From Deltaproteobacteria bacterium (GTDB lineage: Bacteria; Desulfobacterota; GWC2-55-46): 58,718 nucleotides of DNA. Every line of letters begins with the position of its first letter. Position 1 is the stretch's first letter. Position numbers and translations under genes: made by a program. The notes under the pieces were generated by a model. That model saw only the letters and a list, made by a program, of their open reading frames with translations. It was not told the DNA's origin and made no database searches. The DNA lies in assembly GCA_016234405.1 (NCBI GenBank), contig JACRCC010000037.1, positions 1 to 58,718 of the forward strand, in the 5' to 3' direction. Positions 19,934 through 51,780 of this stretch are shown in pieces.

Positions 19934-20680
19934 ATGAACGCAGAGGCCTTGAAAAAACTGATGCTCGGCGTTAGAAAAGGGAGCATCGGCGTCGAGGGCG
20001 CCTTGCAGGCCCTAAAATCCCTGCCGTTTGAAGACCTTTCATTCGCCACCGTTGACACGCACAGGTCGCTGCGCCGAGGCTTTCCGGAGGTCATCTACGG
20101 CGAGGGCAAAAGCGCCGCGCAGATAAAGGCCATTGCAACGGCCATGCTTGCGCGGAAGGAAAACGTCCTTGTAACGAGGCTTGACGTTGCAAAGGCGCGC
20201 ATACTGAAAAAAACGTTCCGGGCCTCGGTCTACAACGATACCGCGAGAACTTTTTTCATAAAATCGCACCCAGTCGTCAAAAAAGGCCGGGGCACTATCC
20301 TTGTTGTATGCGCCGGCACATCCGACGTGCCCGTTGCTGAAGAGGCTGCAATCGTGGCCGGATACATGGGCAACGACGTTGAAAGACTCTACGACGTCGG
20401 GGTCTCCGGCATCCACAGGTTGCTGCACAAAAAAGACGCGATTATGTCAGCAAACGTGCTTATCGTGGTCGCGGGCATGGAAGGGGCGCTGCCGAGCGTG
20501 GTGGCCGGTCTCGTGGACAGGCCAGTCATCGCCGTGCCCACGAGCGTGGGCTACGGCGCAAACCTCGGCGGGCTGACCACGCTTTTGTCCATGCTCAATT
20601 CCTGCGCCTCCGGCGTTTCGGTCGTGAACATAGACAACGGCTTTGGCGCGGCCTACGCGGCGTCCCTGATAAACAGATGA
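19934..20680 (+). CDS. larB: LarB, pyridinium-3,5-biscarboxylate synthase
   Basis: First enzyme of the nickel-pincer cofactor (NPN) pathway, which carboxylates nicotinic acid adenine dinucleotide. The N-terminal ~90 residues are LarB-specific (RRGFPEVIYGEGKSAAQI), and the C-terminal part is a PurE-like domain with VVCAGTSDVPVAEEAA, GVSGIHRLL and TSVGYGANLGGLTTLLSML. It overlaps larC by 4 nt (ATGA). The pathway also needs LarE and an acceptor such as the racemase LarA; neither is in this window. Co-direction with the che genes, 27 nt after cheA, suggests one long transcript but not a shared function. Confidence 0.92.
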   Translation: MNAEALKKLMLGVRKGSIGVEGALQALKSLPFEDLSFATVDTHRSLRRGFPEVIYGEGKSAAQIKAIATAMLARKENVLVTRLDVAKARILKKTFRASVYNDTARTFFIKSHPVVKKGRGTILVVCAGTSDVPVAEEAAIVAGYMGNDVERLYDVGVSGIHRLLHKKDAIMSANVLIVVAGMEGALPSVVAGLVDRPVIAVPTSVGYGANLGGLTTLLSMLNSCASGVSVVNIDNGFGAAYAASLINR

Positions 20681-21897
20681 GGATTCTCTACTTCGATTGC
20701 CCAATGGGCATAAGCGGGGACATGTGCCTTGCCGCGCTTATTGACCTCGGCGTTGACCTGAAGTTCATAATGCGGGAGCTTAAAAAACTCCCCCCCGGCA
20801 AAACAGACAAAATTGACGTGTCGGTGACGAAAGAGACGCGCCACTCCATAACCGGCACTGCCTTCCGCGTAAAACTCCATGATGCTCATCACCACAGGAC
20901 TTACAAAGACATCAAAGGCATAATCGCGGGGAGCAAACTCTCTCCCGGCGTAAAAGGTTTAAGCGCGGCCATATTCAAAACCATCGCCGAGGCCGAGGCC
21001 AAGATACACGGCACGACCGCCGACAAGGTTCACTTCCACGAGGTTGGGGCAATGGATTCCATCATTGACATAGTCGGCGCGGCAATTGCGCTCGATTCCC
21101 TCAATATTTCAAGGTTCATGTCGTCTCCCATACCGTTAGGCGGAGGCTGGGCCAAAACCATGCACGGAACCATCCCCATCCCGGCGCCGGCGACCATGGA
21201 GATTTTAAAAGGCGTCCCTATTGCCTTATCCGAAGCCCCGTTCGAGTTGACGACCCCCACCGGGGCCGCGATAATAAAGACGGTCTCGAGCGGCTTCGGG
21301 CCTATTCCGGCGATGATAGTGGAGAAGACCGGATACGGCGCCGGAAAAAAAGATTTCAAGGACGCCGCGAATCTCTTGAGGATAATCATCGGAGACGCGC
21401 CGGATGAAAAAAAAGCCGCGCCGCATGGGGAACGTCTTTTTATACTTGAGACGAACATAGACGACATGACCCCTCAGGTGGCCGGATACCTGATGGAGCG
21501 GCTTTTGGCCGCGGGCGCCCTCGACGTATTTTTCACGGCCGTTCAGATGAAAAAAAATAGGCCGGCCATCCTCTTGACCGTGCTCGCGGACGCGGCGAGG
21601 AAGGAACGGCTGACCGGCATCATCTTCTCGGAGTCCACTTCCATCGGCGTAAGGACGTTCCCCGTCGAGAGGGAGTGCCTTAGCCGGAGGGTTGAAAAGG
21701 TCAAAACCCCGTTCGGCGCGGTTCGCGTAAAGGTATCGCTCAAGGACGGCGTGATTGTAAACGCGCAACCTGAGTACGAAGATTGCAAGACGCTCTCCGA
21801 AAAAAAGGGCATACCGTTAAAACAGGTAATGGACGCGGCGCGCGCAGCGCCGCTTTGCATTACGAAAGCATGTTGGTTGACAAAATCCTCCGTATAG
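20677..21897 (+). CDS. larC: LarC, nickel-pincer cofactor nickel-insertase
   Basis: CTP-dependent cyclometallase that inserts nickel into the pyridinium dithiocarboxylate precursor. The N-terminus MRILYFDCPMGISGDMCLAA and a His-rich stretch (HDAHHH) are characteristic, with TTPTGAAI and GYGAGKKDF further on. It is a single 406-residue frame, unlike species where larC is split and read by frameshift. The last ~18 codons (from residue about 389, PLCITKACWLTKSSV) lie inside a palindromic element, so the original C-terminus seems replaced. Starts by 4-nt overlap with larB. Confidence 0.93.
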   Translation: MRILYFDCPMGISGDMCLAALIDLGVDLKFIMRELKKLPPGKTDKIDVSVTKETRHSITGTAFRVKLHDAHHHRTYKDIKGIIAGSKLSPGVKGLSAAIFKTIAEAEAKIHGTTADKVHFHEVGAMDSIIDIVGAAIALDSLNISRFMSSPIPLGGGWAKTMHGTIPIPAPATMEILKGVPIALSEAPFELTTPTGAAIIKTVSSGFGPIPAMIVEKTGYGAGKKDFKDAANLLRIIIGDAPDEKKAAPHGERLFILETNIDDMTPQVAGYLMERLLAAGALDVFFTAVQMKKNRPAILLTVLADAARKERLTGIIFSESTSIGVRTFPVERECLSRRVEKVKTPFGAVRVKVSLKDGVIVNAQPEYEDCKTLSEKKGIPLKQVMDAARAAPLCITKACWLTKSSV

Positions 21898-21917
21898 CAA
21901 AGTGGCGCTGGGCGCGC
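21840..21917. repeat. Palindromic element, copy at the larC 3' end
   Basis: GCGCGCAGCGCCGCTTTGC (21840-21858) pairs with GCAAAGTGGCGCTGGGCGCG and one more base (21897-21917), with a 2-nt bulge. The internal sequence (ATTACGAAAGCATG...GGTTGACAA) matches the copy at 51709-51780. Same element as in uvrC at 26470-26539. It supplies the larC stop codon. Confidence 0.85.
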
Positions 21918-26148: not shown

Positions 26149-28008
26149 TTATTCCTTCCCTCCGGTCTTCAACCCCAATATCAGCGCGGCAATCCGGGGC
26201 GAAACCCCGGCCACCGAACCAAGCTCTTCAACGGAGGAGTTTATCATCCCTTCGATGTCTCCGAATCTTTCAAAGAGCGCCTTCTTGGTCTTAATCCCTA
26301 TGCCGGGGATAGCGTCAATGACCGATGATACCGCCTTTGACCTGAGCCTTCTGTGATAGGTTACGGCTAACCTGTGCACCGTATCGCGTATCCTCCTTAT
26401 GAGGAGGTCGGGTCTTGAGTTTTCTTTGAGCGCCACGGGGTCTTTGACGTTGGGCCGGAAGACCCTCTCGCCCAGCGCCACTTTTCGAAACGGAAGTTTT
26501 TTCATACACGCTCCTTCGTGCTGAAAAGTGGCGCTGGGCCTGTCTTTGGCGAGCGCGGCAACGTCCACCCCCCGTACCCCCAATTCCGTTAAAACCCTGC
26601 AAGTGATGTTCAACTGCCCCTTTCCGCCGTCAACGAGGATGAGGTCGGGCGGGACCGCGTCTTGGCCGCCCCTATACCGCCTCTCTAACACCTCGCGCAT
26701 CATCGCGTAGTCATCAGGGCCTTCTGCGCCTTTTATTTTGTAACGCCTGTAAGAGTCTTTGTGCGGCTCTCCGTTCTTAAAGACCGCCATCGCGCCTACT
26801 GCCATTGCCCCGCCGATATTGGATATGTCGAAGGCCTCAATCGTATTTGGGAGATTTAGAAGGTGAAGCCTGTCTTTGAGTTCCGATATAACCGTTGCGC
26901 GTGAAACGGACGCATCCCCCTTTTTCGTCAGACTCTCCCTTGCGTTCTCCAAGGCCATCTTGAGGAGTTTCAATTTCTCCCCCCGGAGAGGCGCGAATAT
27001 GCGCGCCTTCCGCCCTTTTTTCTCGCTGAGCCATTCGGACAAAAAAGCCGCGTCTTCGATTTGAAGGGGGATAATCACCTCATCCGGCACATACCGACTG
27101 CCCATGTAGAACCGCGCCAAAAAAGACGATATGGCCTCGTCATCCGGCAGCCCGGCATCCTCGAAGAAGTAACCCTCGCCCCCCACGAGCCTTCCGTCCC
27201 TTACGAAAAGCGCCTGAATGACGCACGCCCCGTGGTCTTTTGCCGCCGCGAAAACATCCCTGTCTATCGGCTTGTGCGTTACGGCCTTTTGCTCCTCGAG
27301 CATCCCTTTTATTGACTCCATCCTGTCCCTGAGTTTTGCCGCCTCCTCGAAATCAAGACGCATCGAGGCGGAGCGCATCTTATCCTTGAGGAGTTTCAGG
27401 AGTTCCCTATTCTTGCCTTTAAGGAAAAGAACCGCTCCTTTTACGAGTTCCTTGTACCCGTCTTCGGTTATAAGCCCCATTGCCGGCGCAGCGCACAGCC
27501 CCAACTGATAATCGAGACATGGTCTAACTCTATTCCTGAAAACGGACTCGCCGCACACGCGCAGAGGGAAGAGCCTTCTCAGGAACTTCACCGTGTCGCG
27601 CACCGCGCGGGTGGAGACATAGGGGCCGAAATAGAGGCCGCCGTCTTTTTTAATATCGCGCGTTACGAGTATGCGCGGAAATTTTTCGTAAGCGGTTATC
27701 TTGATGGAGCAGTAGGTCTTGCTGTCTTTGAGCCTTATGTTGCAGCGGGGTTTGTATTTCTTGAGGAGCGTGTCCTCTAAAAAGAGCGCCTCTTTTTCGT
27801 TGGCCGTGATTATCCAATCAATATCCGTTGCCCTTGACGCGAGGAATTTGACCGACGGGCGCGAATCGCCCGAAGAACGGAAATAAGACACAACCCTCTC
27901 CCGCAGGTTCTTGGCCTTGCCGATGTAGAGCGCTTCCCCAGATTTACCCTTCATCAGATATACGCCCGGCGCGGCCGGCAGGCTTTTGAGTTTATCCTCT
28001 ATCCCCAT
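26149..28008 (-). CDS. uvrC: Excinuclease ABC subunit C, with in-frame palindromic element
   Basis: Dual-incision nuclease of nucleotide excision repair. Domains in order: GIY-YIG (PGVYLMKGKSGEALYIGKAK), UVR motif (LDFEEAAKLRDRMESIKGM), RNase H-like endonuclease (AFDISNIGGAMAVGAMAVF; DLILVDGGKGQL) and C-terminal HhH pair (DAIPGIGIKTKKALFERFG). Residues 491-513, between ALAKDR and RVFRPN, are encoded by a 70-bp palindromic element that also occurs at 21840 and 51709. That site is a length-variable loop in UvrC proteins, so the protein is probably functional. 619 residues. Confidence 0.95.
   Translation of the reverse strand: MGIEDKLKSLPAAPGVYLMKGKSGEALYIGKAKNLRERVVSYFRSSGDSRPSVKFLASRATDIDWIITANEKEALFLEDTLLKKYKPRCNIRLKDSKTYCSIKITAYEKFPRILVTRDIKKDGGLYFGPYVSTRAVRDTVKFLRRLFPLRVCGESVFRNRVRPCLDYQLGLCAAPAMGLITEDGYKELVKGAVLFLKGKNRELLKLLKDKMRSASMRLDFEEAAKLRDRMESIKGMLEEQKAVTHKPIDRDVFAAAKDHGACVIQALFVRDGRLVGGEGYFFEDAGLPDDEAISSFLARFYMGSRYVPDEVIIPLQIEDAAFLSEWLSEKKGRKARIFAPLRGEKLKLLKMALENARESLTKKGDASVSRATVISELKDRLHLLNLPNTIEAFDISNIGGAMAVGAMAVFKNGEPHKDSYRRYKIKGAEGPDDYAMMREVLERRYRGGQDAVPPDLILVDGGKGQLNITCRVLTELGVRGVDVAALAKDRPSATFQHEGACMKKLPFRKVALGERVFRPNVKDPVALKENSRPDLLIRRIRDTVHRLAVTYHRRLRSKAVSSVIDAIPGIGIKTKKALFERFGDIEGMINSSVEELGSVAGVSPRIAALILGLKTGGKE
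26470..26539. repeat. Palindromic element inside the uvrC coding sequence
   Basis: GCCCAGCGCCACTTTTC (26470-26486) and GAAAAGTGGCGCTGGGC (26523-26539) are perfect 17-bp inverted arms around a 36-bp centre. Read on the minus strand, the centre begins AGCACGAAGGAGCGTGTATG, matching ATCACGAAGATGCGTCTGTA in the intergenic copy at 51726. It is translated as part of UvrC. Confidence 0.93.
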
Positions 28009-51341: not shown

Positions 51342-51366
51342 CAATGTGCCCAAAAGGGAGGCTCAA

Positions 51367-51702
51367 ATGGAATGTATCTTCTGCTCCATCGCGTCGAAGA
51401 AGATGAAGTCCACGGTCGTGCATGAGACCGAGCGCTTCATAGTCATCAGCGACATAAGCCCTCAGGCCCCCAATCACCTGCTCGTGCTGCCCAAGGAGCA
51501 CTTCGAGACCGTCCTCGAGTGCAAGGACAGGGACCTCTTGGGGGAGATGCTTGAGGTCGCCGCCGCTGCCGCCAAAAAAATAGGCGTGGCGGAGCGCGGT
51601 TTCCGGATTATCATAAACACTAACGACGAGGGCGGGCAGACCGTATTCCATTTGCATCTGCACCTGCTGGCCGGCAGACCCCTGCACGGCAAGATGGGTT
51701 AG
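51367..51702 (+). CDS. HIT-family nucleotide hydrolase/transferase
   Basis: HINT-type purine nucleoside phosphoramidase-like protein. The zinc-site N-terminus MECIFCSIASKK and the histidine triad HLHLHLLAGRP are both present, with NHLLVLPKEHFETV between them. I chose the ATG at 51367 because AAAGGGAGGC precedes it and the family starts MxxCIFC. 111 residues. Substrate in vivo is not known. Its stop is 6 nt before a palindromic element. Confidence 0.94.
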   Translation: MECIFCSIASKKMKSTVVHETERFIVISDISPQAPNHLLVLPKEHFETVLECKDRDLLGEMLEVAAAAAKKIGVAERGFRIIINTNDEGGQTVFHLHLHLLAGRPLHGKMG

Positions 51703-51708
51703 CAGCTT

Positions 51709-51780
51709 GCCCAGCGCCGCTTTTCATCACGAAGATGCGTCTGTAGTTGACAAGTTTCGCGCAGAAAAGTGGCGCTGGGC
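51709..51780. repeat. Palindromic element, intergenic copy
   Basis: GCCCAGCGCCGCTTTTC (51709-51725) and GAAAAGTGGCGCTGGGC (51764-51780) pair at 16 of 17 positions around a 38-bp centre. It is related in arms and centre to the elements in uvrC (26470) and larC (21840). Its right end abuts the -35 of the next gene. Confidence 0.92.

Follow-up and report, generated by a model that had tools for sequence, protein, structure and literature searches.

A palindrome translated in the middle of a repair enzyme raises the question of where such a sequence came from and how the gene tolerates it. An earlier note on the 58,718-nucleotide stretch of DNA analysed here (the window) had placed a palindromic element in frame in uvrC, where 17-bp arms frame a segment encoding residues 491-513. 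Our analysis bears this out. The arms (26470-26486 and 26523-26539, 17 nt each) are 100% complementary, and the element lies entirely inside the ORF, within the RNase H endonuclease domain, where its in-frame translation reads PSATFQHEGACMKKLPFRKVALG. The portion kept in all copies is the CCAGC...GCTGG core, while the outer GC/GC, though the flank seen most often, differs from copy to copy. Folded as a single strand and compared with shuffles, the 70-bp element scored z = -7.5 as DNA and z = -7.2 as RNA. The arm sequence was matched six times in the window against 0.21 matches expected by chance, which corresponds to three elements and agrees with the earlier placement of further copies in an intergenic region and at the larC 3' end. 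The larC ORF runs into its copy and terminates inside it, giving the tail AAPLCITKACWLTKSSV. No Rfam family was matched in the window at the gathering score, and the Rfam matches in the element loci were tRNAs, riboswitches, the cspA thermoregulator and RNase P, none of them the element itself. The uvrC element is very probably one copy of a mobile palindrome family that inserts in frame. The family itself is in all likelihood non-autonomous, selfish hairpin DNA that has spread through the host genome and, patchily, through related species.

Table 1 Features of the window that bear on the palindromic element.
Feature	Position	Strand	Remarks
uvrC	26149..28008	-	619 aa, single copy, uninterrupted; identity by Pfam
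Palindromic element in uvrC	26470..26539	-	perfect 17-bp arms, 36-nt centre
Conserved core of the uvrC element	26472-26537		66 bp, divisible by three
larC, nickel insertion protein	20677..21897	+	PF01969; C-terminal codons supplied by the element
Second copy	21842..21913		larC 3' end
Third copy	51709..51780		intergenic; neighbours are a HIT-domain gene (51346-51702) and, from ~51849, a zinc-ribbon gene

The host genome (2.04 Mb in 106 contigs) contains 57 pairs of the exact two-arm pattern, while reversed-pattern controls gave none. A mismatch-tolerant scan of the retrieved host-genome loci yielded 77 copies, mostly intergenic and with about ten in frame inside ORFs, in keeping with the resemblance to the palindromic elements of Rickettsia proposed earlier. 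A covariance model run over both strands of the host genome returned 148 hits. Across copies the core measures 65-69 bp and is bounded by near-invariant 13-bp ends (CCAGCRCCRCTTT and AAAGYGGYGCTGG), which are almost unchanged across families of the class. Several subfamilies share these ends and differ in their centres. Just past the ends, the pairs of the inner stem change on both sides, and position 14/56 is found as GC, CG and UA. Pairing holds in 91% of cells versus 84% after shuffling, and the covariation score of 0.234 compares with 0.119 for shuffled alignments (0 of 500 shuffles as high) and with at most 0.098 for slid registers. The shuffles disregard relatedness; the slid registers are the safer control. 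A paired stem, beyond the mere sequence of the ends, has been maintained, and because the stem covaries it is the hairpin itself that has been maintained. Three nested or three-arm composites, in which an element lies within an element, were also observed (L187:1957-2089, L204:344-432 and L218:1950-2066), two of them without the outer right arm.

Target-site duplication was tested at several offsets and rejected, as an excess of 4-nt direct repeats fades at longer lengths and no direct repeats of at least 7 nt were found at the element boundaries. The modest excess of short direct repeats probably reflects the palindromic GCGC flank. These results bear on an ordinary MITE, whose arms would be terminal inverted repeats cut by a DDE-type transposase that a full-length insertion sequence sharing those ends provides in trans. 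A short non-coding unit with conserved ends, subfamilies that keep the ends and change the centre, and the nesting of one copy in another all suit such an element. Nevertheless, no target-site duplication exceeds chance, and terminal repeats alone do not require the inner stem to covary. The unpaired arms in the retrieved loci, which are decayed copies or third arms, flank no gene, although the search of the host genome for an autonomous copy was not exhaustive. We therefore consider a MITE rather unlikely, without dismissing it.

Among 63 species of the class, 10 carry the family; they fall in three families, and the distribution is patchy, with congeners that carry no copy. The carriers include G000, G003, G006, G010, G043, G044 and G057, whereas G051 and G054 are congeners without the element. 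The genomes compared are drafts, mostly multi-contig. Spread via phages or plasmids was considered and rejected, since neither a two-arm pattern search of viral contigs nor a 70-mer query of plasmids gave a match. A REPIN, in which paired REPs are mobilised by a RAYT (a Y1 HUH transposase), resembles the element in size and hairpin shape, and the host genome does possess one RAYT-like gene (ORF L402:1087-1626). Against this, no Y1_Tnp match was obtained in four element-rich genomes (G003, G006, G018 and G044), the local RAYT adjoins its own GTAG-type REPs with no element arm in the surrounding 3 kb, and the element arms lack the GTAG tag. A RAYT is thus excluded as the mobiliser, and a REPIN origin is scarcely credible. 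The RAYT-like gene on contig C2, a lone Y1 transposase among GTAG-type REPs (GTAGGATGGGTGAAGCGCAGCGCACCCATC), belongs to a second, unrelated palindrome system.

About ten copies are read through in frame within ORFs, as judged from domain searches and translations at the sequence level, without protein data. The ORFs encode UvrC, UvrA, Era, BioD, CheA, an NtrC-type regulator, an SLT-LysM protein, the C-terminal tail of RsmI, a C39 peptidase and a membrane protein without a Pfam match. The last of these (L184) was counted despite having no Pfam domain; its translation before and after the element looks like that of a single membrane protein with several spans. The C39-type peptidase (L183:1444-2151) remains uncertain because the element splits its signal peptide, and a later start or an impaired gene is possible. 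A read-through of TrmFO (L226) was left out, the true start probably lying after the element, and read-through ORFs without domain support (L168, L216, L181 and L200) were not counted as coding. Four further genes, namely larC, tsaD, folC and an aminotransferase gene, terminate inside a copy.

The in-frame copies are not a random sample of the family. The frame that yields PSATF...KVALG is used by 8 of the 10 (P = 0.0016, post hoc test), and the openness of this frame does not account for its preference. Core length is divisible by three in 9 of the 10, compared with 26 of 77 overall (P = 1.5e-4). The exception is UvrA, where a 67-bp core and a 23-nt third arm total 90 and the extra arm restores the frame. 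With nine of ten cores divisible by three, any additional gain or loss at the target itself must usually have been a multiple of three as well, which implies reproducible boundaries. The earlier note had reasoned that 70 bp is not a multiple of three and that insertion must have come with a duplication or deletion at the target. This inference has to be revised: the conserved core of the uvrC copy is 66 bp, Era has gained 63 bp net, and the puzzle has largely gone.

Comparison with relatives distinguished UvrC from Era. None of 27 aligned UvrC proteins from the family and order carries the element residues. The loop from ALAKDR to GERVF, which the earlier note had already identified as variable in length, ranges from about 3 to 22 residues and measures 22 in the host genome. 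Because it varies in relatives anyway, uvrC alone does not prove insertion by length, and the case for insertion there rests on sequence identity with the family. In the AlphaFold model of UvrC, just two stretches have a pLDDT below 50, residues 239-244 and residues 492-511; the second, which is the element and lies between two strands, is the sole such stretch in the RNase H domain. The translated element is thus predicted to form a 23-residue loop, probably disordered, and its presence is probably near-neutral. The closest named relative of this UvrC is from the deltaproteobacterial MAG NC_groundwater_1646, whose UvrC matches that of G018 across the aligned region. In Era a 24-residue element segment directly follows the DTPGIH motif. 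It is absent from all 27 aligned relatives, which read DTPGIH-KGRG-LLNEFM or similar, and the net gain is 21 residues. As far as the alignment can tell, Era is a clean case of insertion. Era is essential in most bacteria and the host genome has one clear copy, so the protein presumably works with the element in place.

Most copies are intergenic, some adjoin T-runs and some lengthen terminator-like stems. A functional motif (a terminator, an mRNA stabiliser or a protein-binding site) that selection preserves at many loci, and that lies in genes only by accident, could give this picture. Such a motif would not, however, be expected to be missing entirely from congeners of carriers, nor to stand inside UvrC, UvrA, Era, CheA and RNase P RNA, where copies do occur. 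We regard this explanation as improbable.

The RNase P RNA gene, rnpB, provided a series of filled and plain sites within one conserved RNA frame, from which the rules of insertion can be read directly. Helices are named here as we interpret the Rfam alignment. In G006 the gene holds three elements and still scores 270 bits. In an alignment of 13 rnpB genes, the element occupies P3, P12 and the 3' hairpin in G006 and G044, P12 in G010, and P3 together with a second helix in G057. The relatives, among them a species from the genus of G057 (G051), bear unrelated short stems at these positions. For P3, P12 and the 3' hairpin, the entire stem has been exchanged and only the basal C/G pairs are retained. 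Peripheral stem-loops have therefore been replaced in G006, G010, G044 and G057; the native stem is gone and has not merely been extended. Separately, the rnpB genes of G054 and G057 (L363 and L375) have a P12 enlarged by other long palindromic inserts that are unrelated to the element.

The rnpB gene of the host genome (L217:1776-2258, contig C93) also carries the element, and its contig passes from the apparent P3 directly to P12, the conserved GGAGGAAAGTCCGG being absent from the assembly. The assembly probably collapsed here between one copy of the element and another. The host genome is a multi-contig draft in which repeats can give wrong joins, and misjoins at repeats could in principle have put the element into genes; the rnpB contig, in which the P3-P12 core is missing precisely where the element lies, is the observation that favours such an artefact. 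On the other hand, on either side of the element UvrC, Era, BioD and CheA continue collinearly and without interruption, and several genomes behave alike in RNase P RNA. An artefact as the general explanation is consequently very hard to sustain.

Analysis of the flanks gave a mixed picture. Among the 77 host-genome copies, flank stems of at least 8 bp were found in 8 cases versus 0.34 expected after partner shuffling, and the flank pairing of some copies is specific to the locus. A majority (44 of 77, the uvrC copy included) have just 0-2 paired flank bases. G043 has near-identical copies at unrelated flanks, and the seven flanks sampled there form no stem. In G006, the tip of two larger outer repeats is taken up in some copies by the element and in others by a different hairpin. 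One large repeat of that genome (L308, L313, L322 and L323) has the ends GGAAGCTCTGATTAATTC/GAATTAATCAGAGCTTCC with the element or another loop at its tip, and it contains an internal CATTGCGAGC...GGCAATCT hairpin that resembles CGTC-type REPs. A loop form considered for the second outer repeat of G006 was discarded, being absent from plasmids and from the retrieved loci; plain copies bear a different tip hairpin.

Such tip exchanges could arise without any mobility enzyme, by template switching during replication or by recombination between hairpins that share short stem bases, so that the tips are swapped. The wholesale exchange of RNase P stems down to their basal C/G pairs, the different tip hairpins on the same outer repeats, the locus-specific flank palindromes and the three-arm composites would all follow. 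In contrast, the 13-bp ends hardly vary from one family of the class to another, and this constancy suggests that their sequence is recognised; the near-identical copies of G043, moreover, stand in flanks without hairpins. Enzyme-free exchange is possible, though we doubt that it is the explanation.

We return to a mobile, selfish hairpin. The element is repeated, paired along its stem, near-identical at unrelated sites and in frame in conserved single-copy genes, and the evidence that the unit is mobile is strong. How it moves can only be inferred, since no movement has been observed and no transposase has been linked to it. The unit would move as a folded hairpin, would insert without duplicating its target, and may often displace the tip of an existing hairpin. 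Copies that break genes would be purged, and the survivors would be those in intergenic DNA, at the tips of functional-RNA hairpins or, provided that the length changes overall by a multiple of three, in surface loops of proteins. Spread through hairpin tips is proposed tentatively, falls somewhat short of an even chance in our judgement, and would be a tendency and not a strict rule. It remains speculative, and on present evidence unlikely, that the family represents a new class of mobile hairpin. Such a hairpin would take over the tip of an existing one, whether in a cruciform of DNA or in the gene for an RNA stem-loop, with no duplication of the target; within one bacterial class it would repeatedly have rebuilt helices at the periphery of RNase P RNA and given essential proteins new peptide loops.

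Protein-coding palindromes in Rickettsia were reportedly called 'unique but recurrent'. The Rickettsia palindromic elements (RPEs; Ogata et al. 2000, 2002, as described in PMC2229807 and PMC10969869) are in-frame palindromes, with fusions to tmRNA and RNase P RNA as well (PMC2229807), and in-frame examples are further described in PMC10969869. Like the present element, they are palindromic, non-autonomous long stem-loops found both in frame in conserved ORFs and between genes, and they too occur in RNA genes (tmRNA and the RNase P M1 RNA, where the present element is known from RNase P RNA). The present element differs in its size (66-70 bp versus a reported 105-146 bp; PMC2229807), its ends and its host, which does not belong to the Rickettsiales. 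Furthermore, unlike RPEs, most of its in-frame copies use one frame with the fixed peptide ends PSATF/KVALG, and it replaces RNase P stems.

ORFs can also harbour REPs with GTAG and CGTC tags, and repair genes, uvrA and uvrB for instance, are recurrent targets (PMC3733652). The likeness extends to short palindromes in ORFs, to the recurrence of uvr and other repair genes and, for CGTC REPs, to the lack of a known dedicated transposase. The element nevertheless has neither tag and no RAYT link, and it is one long hairpin of ~66 bp with invariant 13-bp ends where the REPs are units of 20-40 bp or dimers. CGTC-tagged REPs are defined by the CGTC tag, an 8-9-bp stem and a 4-5-nt loop (PMC3733652); the element has a 15-17-bp outer stem, a ~36-nt centre and no CGTC tag. 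Like REPIN/RAYT systems, it populates the whole genome with short hairpins whose ends are conserved and whose centre varies, but four carriers have no RAYT, the sole local RAYT stands beside GTAG-tagged REPs, and the element ends in CCAGC/GCTGG. Bacterial MITEs (Correia, RUP, ERIC and others) are similarly small, non-autonomous, bounded by terminal inverted repeats and prone to nesting; the element departs from them in its covarying inner stem, in the replacement of hairpin tips, and in that neither a target-site duplication nor a parent insertion sequence was found in a genome not exhaustively scanned.

The earlier note knew of no such family in this kind of bacterium, and the papers searched indeed describe comparable in-frame palindromes of Rickettsia and of some species with REPs but not this one. 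A text search for the end sequence gave no match, which is weak evidence as only open-licence papers were covered. The element is apparently a separate, undescribed family, distinct from RPEs and intragenic REPs, although no direct sequence alignment with RPEs was made. A second and apparently unrelated family outside the Rickettsiales suggests that the in-frame habit is general and not peculiar to reduced intracellular genomes. With it come new peptide loops in core enzymes, Era among them, that can be put to the test. Its targets are also of familiar kinds: core proteins and, once again, uvr genes and RNase P RNA.
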